Positions 1,421 to 11,008 of a stretch of 64,000 nt of DNA are shown piece after piece. Origin of the DNA: Pseudomonas sp. S30. Lineage in GTDB: Bacteria; Pseudomonadota; Gammaproteobacteria; Pseudomonadales; Pseudomonadaceae. The position numbers were made by a program, and so were the translations under genes. The notes under the pieces were generated by a model. It made no database searches, was not told the origin of the DNA, and saw nothing but the letters and a program-made list of their open reading frames with translations. The first letter of the stretch is position 1; every line of letters starts with the position of its first letter. The DNA is taken from the NCBI RefSeq assembly GCF_016518545.1, contig NZ_JACVTO010000006.1, positions 124,001-188,000 on the forward strand, written 5' to 3'.

Positions 1421-2389
1421 GTGAAGGCATTGCAAGGCGTTGACGGGCATGTAGCCTGGGTCCAGGCGCAGCGTCCCGTGTGTGATGCGGGGCAGGTTCG
1501 CATTCGTGTCGCGGCGGCGGGATTGAACCGCGCCGACGTACTGCAGAAGGCCGGCCACTACCCGCCGCCCCCTGGCGCCAGCCCGTACATGGGGCTGGAG
1601 TGCGCGGGCGTGATCGAGGAAGTGGGTGCCGGTGCGGGCGCCGACTGGCGGGTGGGCGATCGCGTCTGCGCATTGCTGGCCAGTGGTGCCATGGCCGAGC
1701 AGGTGGTGGTCGATGCCCGCCATGTGCTGCCCGTGCCCGAGGGGCTGAGTCTGCACGAGGCGGCCGCCACTCCCGAGGTGTACGCCACCGCGTGGCTGAA
1801 CATCTTCCAGCTCGGCGCGGTGAAGGCCGGGGAAAAGGTGCTGGTGCACGCCGGTGCCAGTGGCGTGGGTTCGGCGGCCATCCAGCTGTGCAAGGCCTTC
1901 GGCAATTCGGTGTGGGTCAGCGTCGGCTCCCAGGAGCGACTGGACTACTGCCTGGCGCTGGGCGCGGCGGGAGGTGTGGTGCGCAACCAGAACCTCGAGC
2001 AGCTCGAGGCGCTCGGGCCGTTCGACGTGGTGCTCGATCCGGTCGGCGCCAGCTATGGCGCGCTCAACCTCAAGGTGCTGGCCAGGGACGGACGCTGGGT
2101 GATCATCGGCCTGATGGGCGGCCGGCAGGTCGAACTGGACCTTGCACAAGTGCTGGGCAAGCGCCTGCAAATCACCGGCTCGACCCTGCGCAACCGCGAT
2201 GACGCCTTCAAGGGCGAACTGTTGCGCGACCTTCGCCAGCAGGTCTGGCCACTGTTCAGCGAAGGCCGTCTGTCGCCGCAACTGGTCGACACCTATCCGG
2301 TCGAGTTCGCCGAGGCGGCGTACCAGGCGCTGGAGGGCAATCAGGTGTCGGGCAAGCTGGTGATGGTCATCGACCCCACCCTTGTCTGA
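1421..2389 (+). CDS. NAD(P)H:quinone oxidoreductase, MDR (PIG3-like) family
   Basis: 322-residue medium-chain dehydrogenase/reductase without structural zinc, of the quinone oxidoreductase/TP53I3-like branch. It probably reduces quinones or enones with NAD(P)H in the cytoplasm. The Rossmann motif GASGVG is at residues 145-150, and the N-terminal GroES-like half carries GLNRADVLQKAG, typical of this branch. GTG at 1421 is chosen as start because GGAGG lies at 1412-1416. Length fits the family. It converges with the HAD phosphatase gene, and a GC-rich hairpin lies between the two stops. The exact substrate cannot be read from sequence. Confidence 0.85.
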   Translation: MKALQGVDGHVAWVQAQRPVCDAGQVRIRVAAAGLNRADVLQKAGHYPPPPGASPYMGLECAGVIEEVGAGAGADWRVGDRVCALLASGAMAEQVVVDARHVLPVPEGLSLHEAAATPEVYATAWLNIFQLGAVKAGEKVLVHAGASGVGSAAIQLCKAFGNSVWVSVGSQERLDYCLALGAAGGVVRNQNLEQLEALGPFDVVLDPVGASYGALNLKVLARDGRWVIIGLMGGRQVELDLAQVLGKRLQITGSTLRNRDDAFKGELLRDLRQQVWPLFSEGRLSPQLVDTYPVEFAEAAYQALEGNQVSGKLVMVIDPTLV

Positions 2390-2421: not shown

Positions 2422-3075
2422 TCACGACCAGTTCAGAATGGGCCAGCCATGGCGCTGGGCATGTTCGCGCAGCGCAGCGTCCGGATTCACCGCGCAGGGA
2501 TGGTCGACCTTGGAGAGTAAGGGCAGGTCGTTGCGCGAATCGGAGTAGAAGCTGGCGCCTTCGAGGTTTTCCTGCTCCTGGTCGAGCCACTCCAGCAGAC
2601 GGGTGATCTTGCCTTCGCGGTAAGTCAGCACGCCGTGTGTGCGCCCGGTGTACACGCCGTTGACCGCCTCCAGGTCGATGGCCAGGTACTCCTCCACGCC
2701 CAGTCGCGCGGCGATGGGGCCGACCAGATGAGTACCCGATGCGGAGATGATCAGCACTCGGTCGCCGCGCTTGCGGTGCTCGGCGATGCAGCGACAGGCG
2801 TCGCCATGGATGATCGGCTCGATCACGTCCTCGACCCAGGGTTCGACCAGATGCTCGACTTCCTCCAGCGTTCGCCCGGCGATGGGCTCCAGGCTGAAAG
2901 CCATGTAGTCCTCCATCTGCAGATCGCCCCTGCCGTAGGCTTGCATCAACTCATGGTCACGGCGCAGGAACTCCTGGCCGTCGACCCAGCCCAGCCGGGC
3001 CATCTGTTCGCTCCACAGCGACGCGCAGTCACCGTCGATCAGGGTGTCGTCCAGATCGAAAATCGCCAATGCCAT
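2422..3075 (-). CDS. HAD-IB (SerB-like) phosphatase, last gene of the organophosphorus cluster
   Basis: 217-residue cytoplasmic HAD hydrolase of subfamily IB, the group of phosphoserine and phosphoglycolate-like phosphatases. Motif I is FDLDDT at residues 6-11 (nucleophile Asp7, acid/base Asp9), motif II is the Ser in IISASGTH, and motif IV is DSRNDLPLL. The ATG at 3075 is preferred over an upstream in-frame one because AAGGAG sits just before it and because it starts 13 bp after the ATPase stop. Being last in an ABC transporter-phosphodiesterase operon suggests it dephosphorylates the imported compound or a product of it. The substrate is unknown. Confidence 0.85.
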   Translation of the reverse strand: MALAIFDLDDTLIDGDCASLWSEQMARLGWVDGQEFLRRDHELMQAYGRGDLQMEDYMAFSLEPIAGRTLEEVEHLVEPWVEDVIEPIIHGDACRCIAEHRKRGDRVLIISASGTHLVGPIAARLGVEEYLAIDLEAVNGVYTGRTHGVLTYREGKITRLLEWLDQEQENLEGASFYSDSRNDLPLLSKVDHPCAVNPDAALREHAQRHGWPILNWS

Positions 3076-3088
3076 TGCCTGAATCTCC

Positions 3089-4078
3089 TTAAGCCACTTC
3101 CCGCAGTGCGGCGGGGTCAATCGACAGCGATACCCGCTGTCCGTCGGCGTACAGGTCGGCGGATGAGCGATTGAGCACATCCACCACCACTTCCACGCCG
3201 CGCGCCTGCACACGATACCGTATGACGTTGCCCAGCAGACTGTGACTGCGAATGCAGCCGTCCAGTTCGCCTTCCAGGCTCAGGCCGATGGATTCCGGGC
3301 GAATGGCCAGGCGAGCGCCTATCGGCCGTTGCAGCAGACGGCTGGCGCTGTCGGCGTCGAGCAGGTTGTAGTTGCCGATGAAACCGGCGGCGAACAGGTC
3401 CACGGGGGCGGTATAGAGGGTCTCGGCGTCGCCGCTCTGGACGATGCGCCCCTGGTTCATCAGGACGATGCGGTCCGACAACGTCAGGGCTTCCTCCTGG
3501 TCGTGGGTGACGAACAGGGTGGTCAGGCCGAGCTCACGCTGGATCGCGCGAATCTGTTCGCGCAGATGCTTGCGGATGCGCGCATCGAGGGCCGACAGGG
3601 GTTCATCGAGCAGCAGCAGGCGCGGCCGGGTGACCAGCGAGCGGGCCAGCGCCACCCGTTGACACTGACCGCCGGACAACTGCTGCGGATAGCGCCCGGT
3701 GAACTGGCTGAGCTCCACGAGCTCCAGCACCTCGCGTACGCGCGCCTGGCGCTCGTCGGCCTGGACCTTCTGCATGCGCAGGCCGAACGCGACATTCTGT
3801 TCGACGGTCATGTTGGGGAACAGCGCGTAGCTTTGGAACACCATGCCGATGCCGCGCTTCTGCGGGCTGAGCGGCACGATGTCCTGGCCGTCGAGCAGGA
3901 TTCGACCGCCATCGACGGGCGTAAGGCCGGCGATGCACCGCAGCAGGGTGGACTTGCCGCACCCCGAAGGGCCGAGCAGGGTGACGAATTCGCCGCGCTC
4001 GACGTTGCAGTCGATGTTCTCGAATACCGTGCTGCCGGCGTAGCGCTTGTGCAGTTGCTGGACGCTGACGAAGCTCAT
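3089..4078 (-). CDS. ABC transporter ATP-binding protein, PotA/FbpC-like
   Basis: 329-residue importer ATPase. Walker A GPSGCGKST is at 37-45, the signature LSGGQ at 134-138, Walker B LLLLDEP at about 154-160, the H-loop His at 192, and a C-terminal TOBE-like region carries the consensus RPESIGLS. It resembles ATPases of the polyamine, iron and 2-aminoethylphosphonate (PhnT) type. Its ATG overlaps the stop of the upstream permease (ATGA at 4078-4075), so translation is coupled. It powers the two permeases encoded just upstream. The substrate cannot be deduced from this subunit. Confidence 0.9.
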   Translation of the reverse strand: MSFVSVQQLHKRYAGSTVFENIDCNVERGEFVTLLGPSGCGKSTLLRCIAGLTPVDGGRILLDGQDIVPLSPQKRGIGMVFQSYALFPNMTVEQNVAFGLRMQKVQADERQARVREVLELVELSQFTGRYPQQLSGGQCQRVALARSLVTRPRLLLLDEPLSALDARIRKHLREQIRAIQRELGLTTLFVTHDQEEALTLSDRIVLMNQGRIVQSGDAETLYTAPVDLFAAGFIGNYNLLDADSASRLLQRPIGARLAIRPESIGLSLEGELDGCIRSHSLLGNVIRYRVQARGVEVVVDVLNRSSADLYADGQRVSLSIDPAALREVA

Positions 4079-4872
4079 CGGGTTTTGTCCTTGTTCAGGC
4101 GGTTGGCGACCCAGGTCACGACCAGGATGAAGATGAAGTAGGAAATCACCAGGGCGCTGTTGAAATGACCGCTGCTGTTGCGCATGTTGTTCAGATAGAC
4201 CTGCAGGGTTTCGTAACGGGTGCCCACCAGCAGGTTGGCGAAGACGAACTCGCCGAACAGGAACGAGAACGACAGCAGCAAGGCCACCATCAGCCCCTTG
4301 CGCAGGTTGGGCAGTATCACCACCAGGGCCGCACGCAACGGGCTGGCGCCCAGCAGTTGGGCGGCGTCCATCAGGTCACGCAGGTTGATGGCCTGAAGGT
4401 TGTTGGTGATGGCCCGGTACATGAACGGCAGCGCGATGGTGAAGTAGCAGCCGATGAGTATCCAGGGCGTGCCGACCATGGCCATCGGCCCGCTGCCGTA
4501 CAGTTGCAGCAGCCCCACCGACGACACCACCGGTGGCACCGCGAAGGGCAGCAGGATGAGGATGTTCATCAGCCCGTCGAGGCGGGGGAAGTGGTAGTGC
4601 ACCACGAACAGCAGCGGCAGGATCAGCAGCACCGACAGCACCAGCGCGCCGACGCAGACCAGCAGCGACTGGCCGAAGGCGAGCAGGAAGCGCGGTTCGC
4701 TCCACAGCTGCGCATACCACTTGAGCGTCAGCCCGCTGGGCAGCAAGGTCGCCGACCAGCTGCTGGCCAGCGAATAGAGCAGGGTGCCGGCCAGCGGCAG
4801 CAGCAGGATCAGGAACAGCAGGTACACCACCGTGCGGTGATACCAGCCGCCGGAGGGAGATTCAGCGCGCAT
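4075..4872 (-). CDS. ABC transporter inner-membrane permease (second of two)
   Basis: 265-residue permease of the binding-protein-dependent superfamily with about six membrane segments, beginning with a strongly hydrophobic helix (VVYLLFLILLLPLAG). The cytoplasmic EAA-like loop is visible around LMDAAQLLGASPLRAALVVILP. Its start overlaps the stop of the preceding permease by 11 nt, and its stop overlaps the ATPase start by 4 nt, so all three are one translation-coupled unit. It is similar in kind to PotC/PhnV-type permeases. It forms the translocation pore together with the other permease. Confidence 0.88.
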   Translation of the reverse strand: MRAESPSGGWYHRTVVYLLFLILLLPLAGTLLYSLASSWSATLLPSGLTLKWYAQLWSEPRFLLAFGQSLLVCVGALVLSVLLILPLLFVVHYHFPRLDGLMNILILLPFAVPPVVSSVGLLQLYGSGPMAMVGTPWILIGCYFTIALPFMYRAITNNLQAINLRDLMDAAQLLGASPLRAALVVILPNLRKGLMVALLLSFSFLFGEFVFANLLVGTRYETLQVYLNNMRNSSGHFNSALVISYFIFILVVTWVANRLNKDKTR

Positions 4873-5701
4873 GGTAGCTCCTCTTCAGTAACCACTGATG
4901 GACCAGCGTGACCAGGGTCATGAGCCCCACCAGCACCATGGCCAGGGCGCTGCCCAGATGCGGATCGAGGGTGATGTCGCCGGCCACCAGGGCCGCGATG
5001 CGAATGGGCAGCACGTTGAAGTTGCCGGTGGTCAAGGCGTAGACCGTGGCGTAGGCGCCGAGCGCATTGGCCAGCAGGATGACGAAGGTGCCCAGCAGCG
5101 CCGGTGTCAGCACCGGCAGACCGATGTGGCGCCAGAACTGCCAGTGACTGGCGCCCAGCAGGGCCGCGGACTCGCGCCAGTCTTCACGCAGGGCGTCGAA
5201 GGCCGGATACAGCAGCAGCACCCCGAGCGGAATCTGGAAGTAGGTATAGACGATGATCAGGCCAGTACTGGAATAGATACTGAAATCGCCCAGTAGGCCG
5301 ACCTCCTTCAGGGCCAGGGTGAGCGCACCGTTGAATCCGAGCAGGATGATGAAGGCGAAGGCCAGGGGCACGCCGGCGAAGTTGCTGGTCATGTTGGCGA
5401 AGGCACTGACGAAGTCGCGCAGCCGCGAGTCGACCTGGCGCAAGGAGTAGGCGCCCAGGGTCGCGATGACGATACCGAACAGGCTCGACCAGAAACTGAT
5501 CTGCAGGCTGCGTTCGATGGCTTGCAGGTAGAATTTCGAGGCGAAGATCTTGCTGAAGTTGTCCAGGCCCCAGCCACTCTCGCCTTGCAGGCTGGCCGCG
5601 GCCACCCAGACCAGCGGCGCGATCTGGAAGATCACGAAGAACACGGCGAAGGGCAGCAGGCACAGCAGGGCCAGGTAGCGACCACGATGAGCAGTGTTCA
5701 C
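4862..5701 (-). CDS. ABC transporter inner-membrane permease (first of two)
   Basis: 279-residue permease of the PotB/PhnU type with about six transmembrane helices, the first being YLALLCLLPFAVFFVIFQIAPL. The EAA loop is visible as WRESAALLGASHWQFWRHIGLPVLTP. An open frame continues 22 codons upstream, but GTG at 5701 is the likely start: it overlaps the stop of the phosphodiesterase gene as GTGA, and GGGAG lies upstream. Tight overlaps on both sides show that the phosphodiesterase belongs to the transporter operon. Confidence 0.87.
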   Translation of the reverse strand: MNTAHRGRYLALLCLLPFAVFFVIFQIAPLVWVAAASLQGESGWGLDNFSKIFASKFYLQAIERSLQISFWSSLFGIVIATLGAYSLRQVDSRLRDFVSAFANMTSNFAGVPLAFAFIILLGFNGALTLALKEVGLLGDFSIYSSTGLIIVYTYFQIPLGVLLLYPAFDALREDWRESAALLGASHWQFWRHIGLPVLTPALLGTFVILLANALGAYATVYALTTGNFNVLPIRIAALVAGDITLDPHLGSALAMVLVGLMTLVTLVHQWLLKRSYHAR

Positions 5702-6504
5702 GAGAGCAGCTCCCTGCACAGCGGTTTGTCGTGGGGGGCGCCGAGCAGTTCGCACAGGGTGCCGCACAGCTCGGTCTGCAAGGGCGAGGCGCCAGGGTCG
5801 AGGCTGAAGGCCTCGCCGAAAACGAACAATGGAACCTCGCGCTCTTCTGGAAGCAGGCCATTGTGCGAGCGATCGTCGTTCATGCCATGGTCGGCAGTGA
5901 CGAGTACCTGGTGACCCTCGGCGAGCCAGCGGGGCAGGTAGTCCGCCAGCAGCACGTCGGCGCTGCGCGCCGCGTTGCGATACTGGCTGCTGTCCAGGCC
6001 ATGACGATGGCCGGCGTCATCGATGTTCATCGGATGCACCAGCAGGAAATCGGGCGCATGTCGGCGACGCAGGAACTCGGCGTCGGCCAGCAGGTGCGAG
6101 TCGGGATAGTGGTCGGCGTAGTAGAACAGCCCGTGCTGGATGGGCAGCTCGGGCGCCTCGGTATGGCGGTCGCGCAGCGGATCGAACGGCGAGCGGTTGT
6201 ACAGTTCGCTGACCCAGTGGTACGCCGCCGCCGCGCTGCTCAGCCCGGCGTCACGGGCGTAGTGGAACACGCTGCGCTGATTCGACAGGCGGGCGACCTG
6301 ATTGTGCACGATGCCGCTGTCGATGGGGGCGACACCGGTGAGGATGCATTCATACAGAGGCCGGGACAACGAAGGCAGCTCGCATCGCAGGCGATACAGC
6401 GCGGCCCGTTCGGCCTCGACGTAGGCCTGCAGATGACCCATGGCGTGTGCGGCGACCTGGTAACTGAGGCCGTCGAGCAGGACCAGGATGACATGGTGGT
6501 TCAT
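5698..6504 (-). CDS. Type I phosphodiesterase / alkaline phosphatase-superfamily enzyme
   Basis: 268-residue enzyme of the nucleotide pyrophosphatase/phosphodiesterase fold. The metal ligands of the family can all be placed: Asp11 in LLDG, Asp162 and His166 in DDAGH, Asp205 and His206 in TADHGM, and His214 in SHNG. The usual nucleophile Thr appears to be Ser47 in PSLSRP. No signal peptide is visible, so it should act in the cytoplasm on an imported substrate. The ATG at 6504 has GGAG upstream; the longer open frame upstream is not gene-like. Relatives hydrolyse phosphodiesters or phosphonoacetate; the substrate here is unknown. Confidence 0.82.
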   Translation of the reverse strand: MNHHVILVLLDGLSYQVAAHAMGHLQAYVEAERAALYRLRCELPSLSRPLYECILTGVAPIDSGIVHNQVARLSNQRSVFHYARDAGLSSAAAAYHWVSELYNRSPFDPLRDRHTEAPELPIQHGLFYYADHYPDSHLLADAEFLRRRHAPDFLLVHPMNIDDAGHRHGLDSSQYRNAARSADVLLADYLPRWLAEGHQVLVTADHGMNDDRSHNGLLPEEREVPLFVFGEAFSLDPGASPLQTELCGTLCELLGAPHDKPLCRELLS

Positions 6505-6703
6505 TCGCGACTCCGCAGGCGAAGGTGAAAGCTGCGCCCGGAGCCGGTCCGAGGCGCTGCGCGAGTGGGTTGTGGCGTGCGGGAGCGGATCCACTCGATG
6601 CCCGGCGCTGCGCCAGGCCGGTGTCGCTCGGCAGCTCGGCGCAACCGAGCGCGCTGGCATAGCACCGGCGGCTATAGGCCTGCCGTTCCCGGCACTTCGC
6701 GCC

Positions 6704-7768
6704 TCACTGCATTTCGATGATGACCTGCTCCTGCCATTTCTGCGGCAGGGCCTTGGACGTTCTTTCCCAGGCTTCGGCGTTTTCGATCGGCTTGGCCGCG
6801 CGGTACTGCTCATTGGGCAGCAACTTGGCCTGCACCTCATCGGGCAGCTTCAGATGGTCGGCACGAATCGGTCGCGCATGACCCTTCGCCAGGTTGATCT
6901 GCCCGGCGTCGCTGAAGATGTACTCGCGCGTCAGCTTGGCGGCGTTCGGGTGCTTGGCGTATTTGTTGATCACGGTGGTGTAGCCGGAAATCACCGAGCC
7001 GTCCTGCGGGATCAGGACCTCGAAGCGCTTGGGATCGATCTGCTCGCGATAGCTCAGGCCGTTGAAGTCCCACACCACGCCGACTTCGACTTCGCCTCTC
7101 TCCAGTGTCTGGATGGTCGGGTTGGCCAGCGACAGCCGCCCTTGCTGGGCCAGCTTGGTGAACAGCTGCAGGCCCGGTTCGATATTGGACTCGTCGCCCT
7201 TGTAGGCGATGGCAGCCGCCAGCACGCCATTGGCCGCCTGGGCCGCAGTGCCGACGTCGCCGATGGCCACCTTGTACGTGCCTTTTTCCAGGTCGTGCCA
7301 GGTCTTCGGTCGCTGGTCTTCCTTGACCAGGTCCTTGTTGATGATGAAGGCGATGGTGCCGGTATAGGCCAGGGCCCAGTGGCCGTCCTTGTCCCTTGCC
7401 CATTCCGGCACCTGGTCCCAGGTGCTGGGCTTGTAGGGCTGGGTCACGCCCTTGCTCGCGGCGATGGGGCCGAAGGCTGCACCCACGTCACCGATATCGG
7501 CGCTGGCGTTGTCTTTCTCGGCCTCGAACTTGGCGATTTCCTGGGCCGAACTCATGTCGGTATCGCTGTGCTTGAGGCCGTATTTGCTGGCCAGGTCGTC
7601 CCAGGTGCCTTTCCAGTTGGCCCAGGCATCGGGCATGCCCACGCTGTTGACCGTGCCCTCCTTGCGCGCCGCCTCTTCCAGGCTCTTGAGGTCGGTATCG
7701 GCGGCCATGGCCGTGGTGCACAGGGCGATGGCCGAGCCAAGCAATGACGCCATGAAGAACTTTTTCAT
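6704..7768 (-). CDS. ABC transporter periplasmic solute-binding protein
   Basis: 354-residue secreted binding protein of the AfuA/PotD-like class. The signal peptide is residues 1-22 (MKKFF... with cleavage after AMA), followed by two alpha/beta lobes. It is first in the operon, with a 199-bp gap before the phosphodiesterase gene, which fits the usual excess of binding protein over the other subunits. The RBS GGAGCTTC lies just upstream. The family includes binders of ferric iron, thiamine, polyamines and 2-aminoethylphosphonate. The partner phosphodiesterase and HAD phosphatase favour an organophosphorus ligand, but that is inference. Confidence 0.87.
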   Translation of the reverse strand: MKKFFMASLLGSAIALCTTAMAADTDLKSLEEAARKEGTVNSVGMPDAWANWKGTWDDLASKYGLKHSDTDMSSAQEIAKFEAEKDNASADIGDVGAAFGPIAASKGVTQPYKPSTWDQVPEWARDKDGHWALAYTGTIAFIINKDLVKEDQRPKTWHDLEKGTYKVAIGDVGTAAQAANGVLAAAIAYKGDESNIEPGLQLFTKLAQQGRLSLANPTIQTLERGEVEVGVVWDFNGLSYREQIDPKRFEVLIPQDGSVISGYTTVINKYAKHPNAAKLTREYIFSDAGQINLAKGHARPIRADHLKLPDEVQAKLLPNEQYRAAKPIENAEAWERTSKALPQKWQEQVIIEMQ

Positions 7769-7861
7769 CCGAAGCTCCTGGGTGGGTTGCCTTGAGGTCG
7801 TTGTGAGAACCGGGTGGTGAGTGAGCGGCCGAAGGCCGGGTTCGGGACTTGCCAGGCGATG

Positions 7862-7873
7862 TGGTCTAGGTCA
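7862..7873. promoter_or_regulatory. Candidate second operator, degenerate HutC-type site
   Basis: TGGTCTAGGTCA matches the TGGTCTAGACCA form of HutC/DasR-family operators at 10 of 12 positions. It lies about 90 bp upstream of the solute-binding-protein start, a suitable place to repress that operon. Confidence 0.35.
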
Positions 7874-8095
7874 GCAAACCTTGCGCCAAGGTAGGCCTTG
7901 CGCGTGACAATTTTATGTAGGGGGGAGCCCCTTCCTGGGTCAGCAATGCCTGAAAGCCAAGCGTAGACCACTGGTTGGCCCTTGCCTGGCACGCGTTGGG
8001 AGGGTCGGCCGGCGCCGGGCGCCAGCAGTGTCACGGGATGTTCATGGGCGCTGCCTAGGCTGGTCGGCAGTGTCCGAGCGCCCCCTGACAGGGCC

Positions 8096-8107
8096 TGGAC
8101 TAGTCCA
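8096..8107. promoter_or_regulatory. Candidate GntR/UTRA operator, perfect 12-bp palindrome
   Basis: TGGACTAGTCCA is a perfect palindrome ending 15 bp before the ATG of the GntR gene. GntR regulators of the HutC subfamily commonly bind TGGTnTAnACCA-like palindromes, so this is a good candidate for autoregulation. Confidence 0.5.
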
Positions 8108-8122
8108 CACAGGTAACTTTCG

Positions 8123-8836
8123 ATGCAGTCGACCCCGGCCCGCGCGGTCACGACCATTTGCCAGGCCTTGCAGGAGCAGATCGAGCACGGTTTGCTGGTG
8201 CCCGGTGGCAAGTTGCCGGCCGAACGCACGCTCAGCGAGGTCTTCGCCACCACGCGCATCACCTTGCGCGAAGCACTGGTGCAACTGGAGGCCCAGGGCC
8301 TGATCTACCGGGAAGAGCGCCGCGGCTGGTTCGTCGCCCCCGAGCGCCTGACCTACGACCTGATCGAGCGCAGTCATTTCCATGCCATGGTCCTGGATCA
8401 GGGGCGTGCGCCGGCCACCGAGCTACTGTCTGCCCGGTTGCAGCCGGCCTCGGCCGTCATCTGCGCGCGCTTGCGTCTGCCGGCGCTGTCCAGCGTGGTG
8501 CGCATCTGTCGGTTGCGGCGGATCGATGGGCGAGGGGTGCTGTACGCCGAACACTACCTCAATCCCCGCTATTTCCCAGGCATCCTGGAGCTTGACCTGG
8601 GCCAGTCGCTGACCGAAACGTATGCCCGCGACTATGGCATTCGCTACGGCCAGGTGGGTTTCGAGATCGTCCCGACCGCGTTACCCCAGGCGGCGGCCAA
8701 TGCGCTGCGGGTCTCGACCGGCAGCCCGGGACTGCACATCACCCGGGTCAATAGCGATCAGCATGGGCACCTGATCGACTGCGACCTGGAGTACTGGCGA
8801 CACGATGCGATTCGCATCCGTGCGTGCGCGGGATGA
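8123..8836 (+). CDS. GntR-family (HutC subfamily, UTRA domain) transcriptional regulator
   Basis: 237-residue repressor-like protein. The N-terminal winged helix (about 1-75) contains KLPAERTLSEVFATTRITLREAL, the classic GntR recognition helix region, and the C-terminal UTRA effector domain (about 90-235) is seen in VVRICRLRRIDG and YAEHYLN. UTRA regulators such as PhnF and PhnR control phosphonate genes, others control sugar or histidine genes. It is divergent from the ABC-phosphodiesterase operon and is almost certainly its local regulator, with the imported compound or a derivative as effector. A candidate operator overlaps its leader. Confidence 0.88.
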   Translation: MQSTPARAVTTICQALQEQIEHGLLVPGGKLPAERTLSEVFATTRITLREALVQLEAQGLIYREERRGWFVAPERLTYDLIERSHFHAMVLDQGRAPATELLSARLQPASAVICARLRLPALSSVVRICRLRRIDGRGVLYAEHYLNPRYFPGILELDLGQSLTETYARDYGIRYGQVGFEIVPTALPQAAANALRVSTGSPGLHITRVNSDQHGHLIDCDLEYWRHDAIRIRACAG

Positions 8837-8854: not shown

Positions 8855-11008
8855 TCAGCCGGAGGTCTGCGCCGGCGTGACCGCACCGCCACCGGCCGTC
8901 ACCACCTGCACCGACAACCGTGGCGTCGCCAGATCCAGGCCTGCTTCGTCGAGCTGGCGCTTGAGTGCCAGGTTGAACGCCCGGGACACCTCCCACTGCT
9001 TGATCGGCGCGGTCTTGAAGCGCGCCCGCAGGATCGCCGAGCCGGACTCGAAACTCTCGACGCCCTGCAGCTCCAGCGGCGACCAGATGTTGCGGCGCAT
9101 CAGCGGGTCGCTGCGCAGCTTCTGGCCCACTTCACGGATCAGGGTGATGGCCTGGTCGATGTTCATGTTGTGGGGGATCGCCACGCGGAAGATGGCGTAA
9201 CCGAACTCCCGCGAGTAGTTCTTGATGCTCTTGATCTCGCTGAAGGGAATGGTATGCACGATGCCATCGATGTCGCGCAGGCGCACGGTGCGGATGGTCA
9301 GGCCCTCGACCGTACCCAGGTGGCCACCCAGGTCCACATAGTCGTCGATGGCCAGGCTGTCCTCGATGATGATGAACAGACCAGTGATCAGGTCCGCCAC
9401 CAGCGATTGCGCACCGAAGCCGATCGCCAGGCCGATGACACCGGCACCGGCCAGCAGCGGCGTGACGTTCATGCCCATGTTGGCCAGGGCGACGATCACC
9501 GCGATGATGAAGATCGCCACGAACAGCACGTTGCGGATCAGCGGCATCATGGTCTGCGCACGGGCGTTGGCCATCCCGCGACGGGAGCGGATCAGGGCAT
9601 GATGCACCGCGGTATCGGCGAGGATCCACACCAGCCAGGCGGCGATGAGTGTCCCGCCCAGGCCCATCAGGCGCACGCTGACGTCATGGCCTTCGCCCTC
9701 GGCGAAGCTGATCATCGACAGCCCCCACACGCGCAGGCCCAGCTCGATGAACAGCAGCCAGATGAACAAGTGCACCAGCGCATAGCCGAAGTTCTGCAAG
9801 CGCTCGGCGTACACCGCATGCCGCTTGTTGGCGTGCGCCGGCTTGGCGGCGTGGCGCCGCACCAGGCCGTTGAGCACCATGCACACCACGACCAGCACGG
9901 TGCACATCAGCGACTGGCGCAGGGCGGTGCTGGTGTCCCCGGCGGACACGAAGGTGGCGAACAGCGAGATGCCGACCAGAATGAGCGCCGGCACGTACCA
10001 GAAGCTGCCGAGCAGTTCGATGGTGTCGCTCAGGGTGCGGCGGGTAAGGCGTCGCGACAGCGGCTGGTTGCGAATCAGATGGGCGATCGGGCGGCGGAAA
10101 CGCAGGATGAACAGGCCCGTGCACAGGGCTGCCAGCACGTTGGTGACCGTGGCGATGGCATGGGCCAGGTGGATGCCCAGGGCACTGGTCAGGCGTGGGT
10201 CGCTCATCGCCTCGCCGAACGCGGCGAAGCTGCCGATCAGCCACAGCGGGTTGAATGCCCGATGTCGCAGGATGTGCAAGGCACGGTGGCGGTGCGGGCC
10301 GTCGAGCAGTGAGAAGGCGATCACGCAGATCGCCGAGAAGCAGGTGCCGATGACCAGCGCATAGGCCAGTACCATGGCCAGGGACTTGCCCAGCGACGGC
10401 GGCAGGGCGAAGCTCAGGTACACGGTGAAGATCAGCGCCACCAGCCAGGGCCCGAGCTTGCGCAGGGCGAAGCGCACCAGGTCCCAGGTGCGCGGATGCT
10501 GGGGTAGCTCTTCGGTGAGGCCGAAACGAATCCGCACCCGGTGGCCGATCCAGTTGAAGGCATAGGCCAGCAGGCTCCACACCAGGATCACCGCGGCGAA
10601 GCCGAACAGGATCGCCGGCCACTGGTGCACCGGCACCACCAGCGCGGCCAGCTCGGCCTTGGCCTGCTCCAGCTCCTGGGACCAGCGCACGAACGGGCTG
10701 GCGTCGCCGCTGAACTGCTGTTCGAAGTCGTGCAAGGCGCCGCCGATCAGGCCAAGCACACCTTGCTCGACACTGGGCTGGGACTGCTTGCTGGCATCGC
10801 GCAGCTTCTTCAGGTCGGCCAGCAGCTTGGCCCGCTGCTGGTCGTTCTCAAGGTTCTTGATCACCTCGTCGAGCGATTTGCTCAAGGGTTCGCTGGCCTG
10901 GGGCTGCGCCGGCGCGCTGCTGCCCAGCAGACCGGGCAGGCCCGCCGCGTGGACTGGAGCGACGAAGATCAACAGCAGCAGGGCAAGGCAACGCAGGAAG
11001 GCTGGCAC
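8855..11008 (-). CDS. MscS-family mechanosensitive channel with large N-terminal membrane extension (YbiO-like)
   Basis: 717-residue protein resembling E. coli YbiO. It has a signal peptide (cleavage near VHA-AG at residues 20-22), a periplasmic coiled-coil-prone stretch (about 45-115), roughly ten membrane helices, and a C-terminal MscS core. The pore-lining helix shows the Gly/Ala pattern AGAGVIGLAIGFGAQSLVADL, followed by the beta domain with DYVDLGGHLGTVEGLTIRTVRLRD. It releases solutes on osmotic downshift. Its stop faces the GntR gene stop 19 bp away. It is a single gene, and no fusion or frameshift is seen. Confidence 0.9.
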   Translation of the reverse strand: MPAFLRCLALLLLIFVAPVHAAGLPGLLGSSAPAQPQASEPLSKSLDEVIKNLENDQQRAKLLADLKKLRDASKQSQPSVEQGVLGLIGGALHDFEQQFSGDASPFVRWSQELEQAKAELAALVVPVHQWPAILFGFAAVILVWSLLAYAFNWIGHRVRIRFGLTEELPQHPRTWDLVRFALRKLGPWLVALIFTVYLSFALPPSLGKSLAMVLAYALVIGTCFSAICVIAFSLLDGPHRHRALHILRHRAFNPLWLIGSFAAFGEAMSDPRLTSALGIHLAHAIATVTNVLAALCTGLFILRFRRPIAHLIRNQPLSRRLTRRTLSDTIELLGSFWYVPALILVGISLFATFVSAGDTSTALRQSLMCTVLVVVCMVLNGLVRRHAAKPAHANKRHAVYAERLQNFGYALVHLFIWLLFIELGLRVWGLSMISFAEGEGHDVSVRLMGLGGTLIAAWLVWILADTAVHHALIRSRRGMANARAQTMMPLIRNVLFVAIFIIAVIVALANMGMNVTPLLAGAGVIGLAIGFGAQSLVADLITGLFIIIEDSLAIDDYVDLGGHLGTVEGLTIRTVRLRDIDGIVHTIPFSEIKSIKNYSREFGYAIFRVAIPHNMNIDQAITLIREVGQKLRSDPLMRRNIWSPLELQGVESFESGSAILRARFKTAPIKQWEVSRAFNLALKRQLDEAGLDLATPRLSVQVVTAGGGAVTPAQTSG

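Follow-up and report, generated by a model that had tools for sequence, protein, structure and literature searches.

A core Pseudomonas operon that may import 2-aminoalkyl phosphodiesters and hydrolyse them in two steps

In the genome of Pseudomonas sp. S30 (5.47 Mb), a minus-strand operon of six genes encodes a solute-binding protein (SBP), a phosphodiesterase (PDE) of the alkaline phosphatase superfamily, the two permeases and the ATPase of an ABC importer, and a HAD-IB phosphatase (HAD), and it faces a divergent gene for a GntR/UTRA regulator. All seven genes announced by the original prediction are present in the window, the stretch of 64,000 nucleotides from contig NZ_JACVTO010000006.1 (positions 124,001 to 188,000) analysed here (Table 1). 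The same prediction had proposed an organophosphorus importer that feeds two hydrolases, an idea that our inferences support, and had left the substrate fully open, where several lines now point to 2-aminoalkyl phosphate or phosphonate compounds. Its claim that the set is novel is not supported, as the operon is core to Pseudomonas and the transporter is probably the published AepSTU.

Table 1. Features of the importer-hydrolase locus and its flanks (positions in the window; scores in bits)
Feature	Position	Strand	Assignment
HAD-IB phosphatase, 217 aa	2422-3075	-	PF12710; TIGR01490 179.5 over 98.3; predicted second-step phosphomonoesterase
ABC importer ATPase	3089-4078	-	PF00005 and TOBE_2; best NCBIfam TIGR03265 PhnT2, 376.6 under 457.7
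ABC permease 2	4075-4872	-	PF00528; best NCBIfam PhnV, 88.8 under 358.7
ABC permease 1	4862-5701	-	PF00528; best NCBIfam 2AEP permease NF011624, 68.6 under 247
Compact NPP-like PDE of the alkaline phosphatase superfamily, 268 aa	5698-6504	-	PF01663
SBP, 354 aa	6704-7768	-	PF13343, 108.2 over 24.6; PDB 5t1p, 489; probable AepS ortholog
Operator-like site TGACCTAGACCA	7862-7873	minus-strand reading	93 bases upstream of SBP start
Operator-like palindrome TGGACTAGTCCA	8096-8107	.	15 bases before GntR start
GntR/UTRA regulator, divergent	8123-8836	+	PF00392 and PF07702; TIGR03337 phnR, 283.8 under 296.75
Quinone oxidoreductase gene, operon flank	1421-2389	+	
Large channel-like gene, other flank	8855-11008	-	named by eye

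The start of the PDE was placed at ATG 6504 and that of permease 1 at GTG 5701, overlapping the PDE stop, in preference to the longer starts of the mechanical open reading frames. Gene ends, which had been predicted to overlap in the operon as a whole, do so only in the stretch from PDE to ATPase (by 4-11 bases); the SBP and PDE genes are 199 bases apart and the ATPase and HAD genes 13. RNA structure in the SBP-PDE gap was ordinary (z -0.79), and a scan of positions 7700-8200 for sigma-70 promoters and terminators found none. The closest named SBPs are those of P. parafulva and other putida-group strains.

The SBP was found in 147 and the PDE in 143 of 149 Pseudomonas genomes; the six PDE-less genomes comprise two without the SBP and four with it, and the PDE occurred without the SBP in none. 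Among the named Pseudomonas loci, taken as the best 80 of 571 SBP matches, 73 have a PDE, always accompanied by the HAD (73/73) and in 71 cases by the GntR gene as well; of the remaining seven, two are truncated at the end of a contig and five lack both PDE and GntR. A survey of 398 genomes from the phylum gave SBP orthologs (at least 61% identity) in 26, clearly set apart from the next matches at 40%, and PDE orthologs (at least 58% identity) in 29, 25 of which also hold the SBP. For the ortholog genomes outside the genus, 14 of 17 were read (G210, G293 and G329 were left out): the PDE stands between SBP and permease in 13 loci, the HAD follows the ATPase in 12 and the divergent GntR gene is present in all 14. 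The same gene order is seen in Vibrio-like, Psychromonas, presumed Enterobacterales and Aeromonas loci and, without the HAD, in Halomonas; the six-gene order thus recurs in and outside Pseudomonas, a point that had been proposed for checking. Erwinia, Pantoea, Dickeya, Serratia, Psychromonas and Vibrio are among the close PDE relatives by name, and SBP and PDE are adjacent in a named Vibrio record. Identities in loci L187-L195 are 55-62% for the PDE, 61-66% for the SBP and 35-52% for the HAD. The PDE gene had no match at the DNA level in complete E. coli genomes ('distant' blastn).

Copies also occur on plasmids: P. aeruginosa plasmid pPALO11 (L239) carries the operon with the start of the GntR gene and the quinone oxidoreductase gene, and two further P. 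aeruginosa plasmid records match PDE and SBP. An SBP 76.5% identical to the Pseudomonas one lies in NZ_CP108617.1, a Streptomyces avidinii plasmid record that is possibly mislabelled or contaminated. In genome G495, a 38% identical SBP stands with importer and HAD but without a PDE (L198), and a 45% identical PDE lies elsewhere (L216).

The PDE begins with MNHHVILVLLDG and shows no signal peptide by eye, so that the earlier label 'cytoplasmic' is reasonable. On its predicted NPP fold the two-metal site and the nucleophile are present in full, and ENPP7 and ENPP6, in phosphocholine-bound entries, are among its structural neighbours. An alignment of 77 sequences has 81 invariant columns, and residues Y95, W97, E100 and Y102 are invariant. 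The PDE matches no NCBIfam family at E 0.001, including that of the phosphonoacetate hydrolase PhnA (TIGR02335), and PhnA is not among the best 50 structural neighbours listed, which excludes nothing; the operon genes are none of phnWX either, so that the predicted lack of phnW, phnX and phnA from the operon is upheld. PHROGs gave no family for the PDE and one unnamed family for the HAD. In the latter, D7, D9, K156, D179 and D183 are invariant in all 12 aligned sequences. The SerB model TIGR00338 gives it 36.1 bits against a cut-off of 144.15, and the histidinol-phosphatase (HolPase) model NF052360 gives 240 bits, under the curated cut-off of 280. A separate HolPase in the same genome (L232) exceeds that cut-off with 350.9 bits, and the HAD is a HolPase-like paralog of it. 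A literature search, mostly outside subscription papers, found no description of the operon's PDE or HAD in the text that was available, and the job of the two enzymes has apparently not been described before.

HutC-type GntR/UTRA regulators have palindromic CTAG-centred operators, and the divergent regulator of the operon combines a winged helix-turn-helix domain and a UTRA domain with a palindromic CTAG-centred candidate operator. Its score with the PhnR model falls just under the cut-off. At least two TGGNCTAGNCCA-like sites are present in each of the 74 Pseudomonas intergenic regions that have GntR and SBP genes, with 149 sites in these regions against 0.9 in mononucleotide shuffles. Elsewhere in its own genome the pattern TGRNCTAGWCCA occurs at one place only, on contig C66, whereas the backward control occurs 17 times. 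This other exact site (G000:C66:151883-151894; L236) has two neighbours assigned by eye, an HPPD-like gene and a fragment of a membrane sensor. The GntR gene is absent from seven of the eight distinct Pseudomonas loci without a PDE (L226 and L102 are one locus, counted once). In six scanned loci without GntR and PDE, no site came closer to the pattern than two mismatches; L227, which lacks the PDE and keeps GntR, retains both sites. The scan left out L070 and L084 (PDE, no GntR) and L204 (neither). As the operator-like sites are lost together with GntR, we identify them as its putative operators, and the regulator is predicted to be nearly operon-specific in this genome. We take PA3249 to be its P. 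aeruginosa counterpart. A study that regards PA3249 as a transcription factor found that it also binds the amrZ promoter in vitro (PMC8041468; here and below, cited papers are represented by the parts available to us), so that, on this assignment, the regulator has wider roles in P. aeruginosa.

For the importer, the closest published match is AepS (PPUBIRD1_3891), a PF13343 SBP of P. putida BIRD-1 whose transporter AepSTU is auxiliary in the uptake of 2-aminoethylphosphonate (2AEP): growth on 2AEP as sole phosphorus source was lost when AepSTU was deleted on top of two other transporters (PMC8316502). The same protein is also listed as PhnD3, higher in cells depleted of inorganic phosphate (Pi), also without PhoBR, with values of 2.69 in Pi-depleted BIRD-1 and 2.31 in a phoBR mutant (PMC5082522). 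In BIRD-1, gcd has tag 4115 and is therefore 224 tags from AepS (PMC5082522, PMC8316502). This distance was compared in six relatives (P. wayambapalatensis and five genomes that consist of a single contig); in four of them the operon SBP lies 252 (G110), 233 (G104), 232 (G015) and 224 kb (G065) from a gcd-like gene. Another PF13343 hit is found on the opposite side of gcd in G065, G104 and G110 (258, 327 and 330 kb off); in G065 it is polyamine-type and stands amid agmatine genes with no permease or ATPase adjoining, by eye. This synteny makes the operon SBP probably the AepS ortholog and, thus, the importer probably not new. The distance to phnX was given up as a further argument because tag 3492 is described as a PhnX-like HAD, not PhnX (PMC5082522), and because this distance differs widely among the relatives. 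A phnX gene passed the cut-off in five of six genomes tested, 0.48 Mb from the SBP in G149 and about 1.9-2.5 Mb in the other four; G091 has none yet keeps SBP and PDE.

The match to PDB 5t1p covers residues 2-353 of the SBP. In the sugar-phosphate binder AfuA, Ser37 and Tyr103 lie on the phosphate side of the ligand and H205, D206 and E229 on the sugar side (PMC4546632, PMC8427247). A weak alignment (38 bits) keeps the former as S74 and Y135 (99 of 100 rows, one gap) and replaces the latter by F235, N236 and S261. The predicted SBP structure (mean pLDDT 57.9) was not used. Besides those in Table 1, the models for PhnS (40.3 against a cut-off of 395.3 bits), PhnT (302.1 against 499.15) and PhnU (58.1 against 283.45) were not passed, and neither were those of PhnS2T2U2, also called AepXVW (TIGR03261, 42.9 against 392.75; TIGR03262, 65.6 against 593.25). 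No iron, polyamine or thiamine model was over its cut-off among the families listed, which for the ATPase are the best 25 of 189. We assume that PA3249-PA3255 are the PAO1 tags of the operon and PA3250 the SBP ortholog. PA3250 was reported in a Pi-starvation exoproteome (PMC4899797), and the listing of PA3252 as a PotB-like permease (PMC9397018) fits these tags. The AepS link and the near-PhnR regulator point toward aminoalkyl phosphorus compounds.

Further clues to the substrate come from loci rebuilt in other bacteria. 2-Trimethylaminoethylphosphonate is the phosphonate twin of phosphocholine, and in Labrenzia a PDE homolog (34.5%) overlaps TmpB behind TmpA, whose models are passed with 577 over 400 and 352 over 300 bits. 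TmpAB are genes of the 2-trimethylaminoethylphosphonate pathway in Leisingera (PMC10574752). On one such Labrenzia plasmid (L242, 5298-8837), a LysR gene accompanies TmpA-TmpB-PDE, and an ABC importer of the oligopeptide type lies 3 kb further along. E. faecium plasmids retain the order SBP (56%), PDE (46%), permeases, ATPase. In the three loci read (L237, L238 and L247) the HAD is absent, a PHP-domain gene stands divergently, and a radical-SAM gene resembling glycyl-radical-enzyme activases lies nearby. Matches to the SBP, to the PDE and to the PHP gene were found in 179 Enterococcus records each, those of the PHP gene at 99% identity or more, and the sole PDB match of the PHP gene is a histidinol phosphate phosphatase (4gc3). 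HAD and PHP belong to unrelated families, each of which includes enzymes that act on histidinol phosphate. As this compound has 2-aminoethyl phosphate at its core, both would fit a phosphoethanolamine-like intermediate. In G449, paired PDE and HAD genes stand ahead of an importer of the PF00496 oligopeptide type, and in nine of the ten f51/f55 genomes read, presumed alphaproteobacteria, a PDE homolog (31-36%) has importer genes of that type beside it. No recognised importer gene adjoins the PDE homologs of L243, L246 (Phyllobacterium), L222 and L217. A Na/Pi transporter gene with a PhoU domain directly follows the ATPase gene in L186 (G522) and an importer-less PDE near psiE in L213 (G325); such neighbours would fit a surplus of phosphate.

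We propose that the PF13343-type importer takes up a small 2-aminoalkyl phosphodiester, for example glycerophosphoethanolamine, and probably 2AEP as well, whose uptake by AepSTU is published. The NPP-like PDE would split the imported diester into an aminoalkyl monophosphate (phosphoethanolamine) and an alcohol, from which monophosphate the HAD would then free phosphate, an order of the two cuts that the original prediction had given and that seems plausible. Bound at the two TGGNCTAGNCCA operators, the regulator would repress both the operon and its own gene, and an aminoalkyl-phosphorus ligand would relieve this repression on binding. The general scheme, import of an organophosphorus compound and its stepwise hydrolysis, we regard as likely; for the specific version, with a 2-aminoalkyl diester and two-step cutting, our confidence is about evenly divided.

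Several observations weigh against this proposal. NPPs have a functional Asn three residues after the nucleophile, and in the PDE it is replaced by Leu50 (PSLSRPLY versus PSLTFPNH), so that diesterase activity is not assured. Eight distinct Pseudomonas loci keep the transporter without the PDE, six of them with the HAD; the PDE is kept without the HAD in L186, L187 and Halomonas L240; and G325, G449 and G408 have a PDE ortholog but not this SBP, the PDE of G489, a Pseudomonas, being at a contig end. The transporter is perhaps retained without PDE or HAD because it also takes the monoester or 2AEP itself. The TmpAB-PDE arrangement belongs to one lineage (three of seven TmpB plasmid records, all Labrenzia), with no PDE within 4.5 kb of the other four TmpAB plasmid loci. 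Likewise, the E. faecium plasmids with the operon seem to represent a single lineage; the one model that their PHP gene passes is for a 'hypothetical protein' (303.8 over 303 bits), and the gene stays below the cut-offs of the histidinol-phosphatase models. A scan of the window for Pho boxes gave 4 matches, where chance alone would give 12. The probable identity of the SBP with AepS was drawn from gcd distance, not from sequence; the SBP is not near a gcd-like gene in two of the six relatives (G149 and G091), and a motif scan for PhoH, by which AepS was to be placed on one side or the other of gcd, detected none within 200 kb in G110 or G065. AepS has moreover been reported as made constitutively (PMC8316502), and as lower in a phoBR mutant than in the wild-type low-Pi exoproteome (PMC5082522).

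Some of these points would suit a general organophosphate scavenger, in which mixed small phosphoesters and phosphonates enter with no aminoalkyl preference and two broad phosphatases supply phosphate under limitation. The low-Pi reports on AepS/PhnD3 (PMC5082522) and PA3250 (PMC4899797), the separate loss of HAD and PDE in some loci and the Na/Pi transporters beside the operon (L186) and the PDE (L213) agree with it. However, conservation of the PDE comes close to that of the SBP in L187-L195, its alignment is rich in invariant columns, and the exact operator pattern has just one other place in the genome, so that we consider a scavenger rather unlikely. Less probable still is a system for phosphonate esters, with 2AEP or methylated 2AEP esters from phosphonolipids as ligand, a PDE that acts as phosphonate monoester hydrolase and gives 2AEP to a distant PhnWX, and a HAD that handles phosphate by-products. 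The link between AepSTU and 2AEP, the PhnR-like regulator, the Labrenzia TmpAB-PDE locus and a phnX over cut-off in most genomes tested all speak for such a system, but G091 has SBP and PDE and no such phnX, and the HAD or PHP phosphatase would be left unexplained.

The HolPase likeness of the HAD (240 bits) and of the PHP gene (4gc3) could instead mean that histidinol phosphate or a relative is imported; this is very improbable, as the HAD falls under the HolPase cut-off in a genome whose HolPase is elsewhere (L232), and a monoester would need no PDE. We give an equally slight chance to an importer of iron, polyamine or thiamine with bystander enzymes. Source names such as 'putative spermidine/putrescine SBP', the PotB-like label of PA3252 (PMC9397018) and the inclusion of cj0730 among iron-related biofilm genes (PMC7176700) suggest it, but linkage to the enzymes holds from Pseudomonas to Enterococcus, and the corresponding models listed were not passed.

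If import and two-step cleavage of a 2-aminoalkyl diester is correct, an operon core to Pseudomonas, with genes now labelled hypothetical or spermidine transport, would gain a function, the purpose of the 'auxiliary' 2AEP transporter would be explained, and lipid head-group diesters would be a phosphorus source perhaps common to many soil, marine and host-associated bacteria. With two unrelated phosphatases around one importer-PDE set, the substrate class is directly testable with a small ligand panel. More tentatively, and with doubt prevailing, one may imagine a bacterial cytoplasmic route for head-group diesters of phospholipids and phosphonolipids, in which an AepS-type or oligopeptide-type importer and a minimal counterpart of ENPP6/7, cutting to the aminoalkyl monophosphate or phosphonate, are combined with exchangeable last-step enzymes: the HAD in Pseudomonas and Vibrio, a PHP enzyme in Enterococcus, and TmpAB, for the trimethyl phosphonate, in Labrenzia.

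Among known systems, the Xac NPP, ENPP6 and ENPP7 share with the PDE the fold and all seven metal and nucleophile positions; the PDE differs in being about 115-125 residues shorter, in its lack, by eye, of a signal peptide and in a Ser nucleophile followed by Arg, besides the change of Asn to Leu. The TmpAB pathway is linked to the operon by the Labrenzia overlap, but the Pseudomonas operon is without TmpAB, and the PDE is missing beside four other TmpAB loci. We presume that 5t1p is the SBP of the Campylobacter jejuni cj0727-cj0732 operon, which would include a phosphodiesterase and a HAD gene and belong to the PhosR regulon; the match of 5t1p to the SBP is the sole sequence-level comparison with it. 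That operon has been described, in the available part of the source, without an assigned function (PMC7176700). AepSTU resembles the importer in its PF13343 SBP and, in four of six relatives, in its gcd distance; it was published as a transporter only, with no phosphodiesterase or HAD partner named in the accessible text (PMC8316502). Unlike AepXVW, the operon has two separate permeases. The Salmonella-type PhnRSTUVWX system has a divergent UTRA regulator, two separate permeases and an ATPase, all of which the operon shares, with its regulator near the PhnR cut-off. The SBP, ATPase and permeases are far under the Phn cut-offs, and the place of PhnWX is occupied by the PDE and the HAD.

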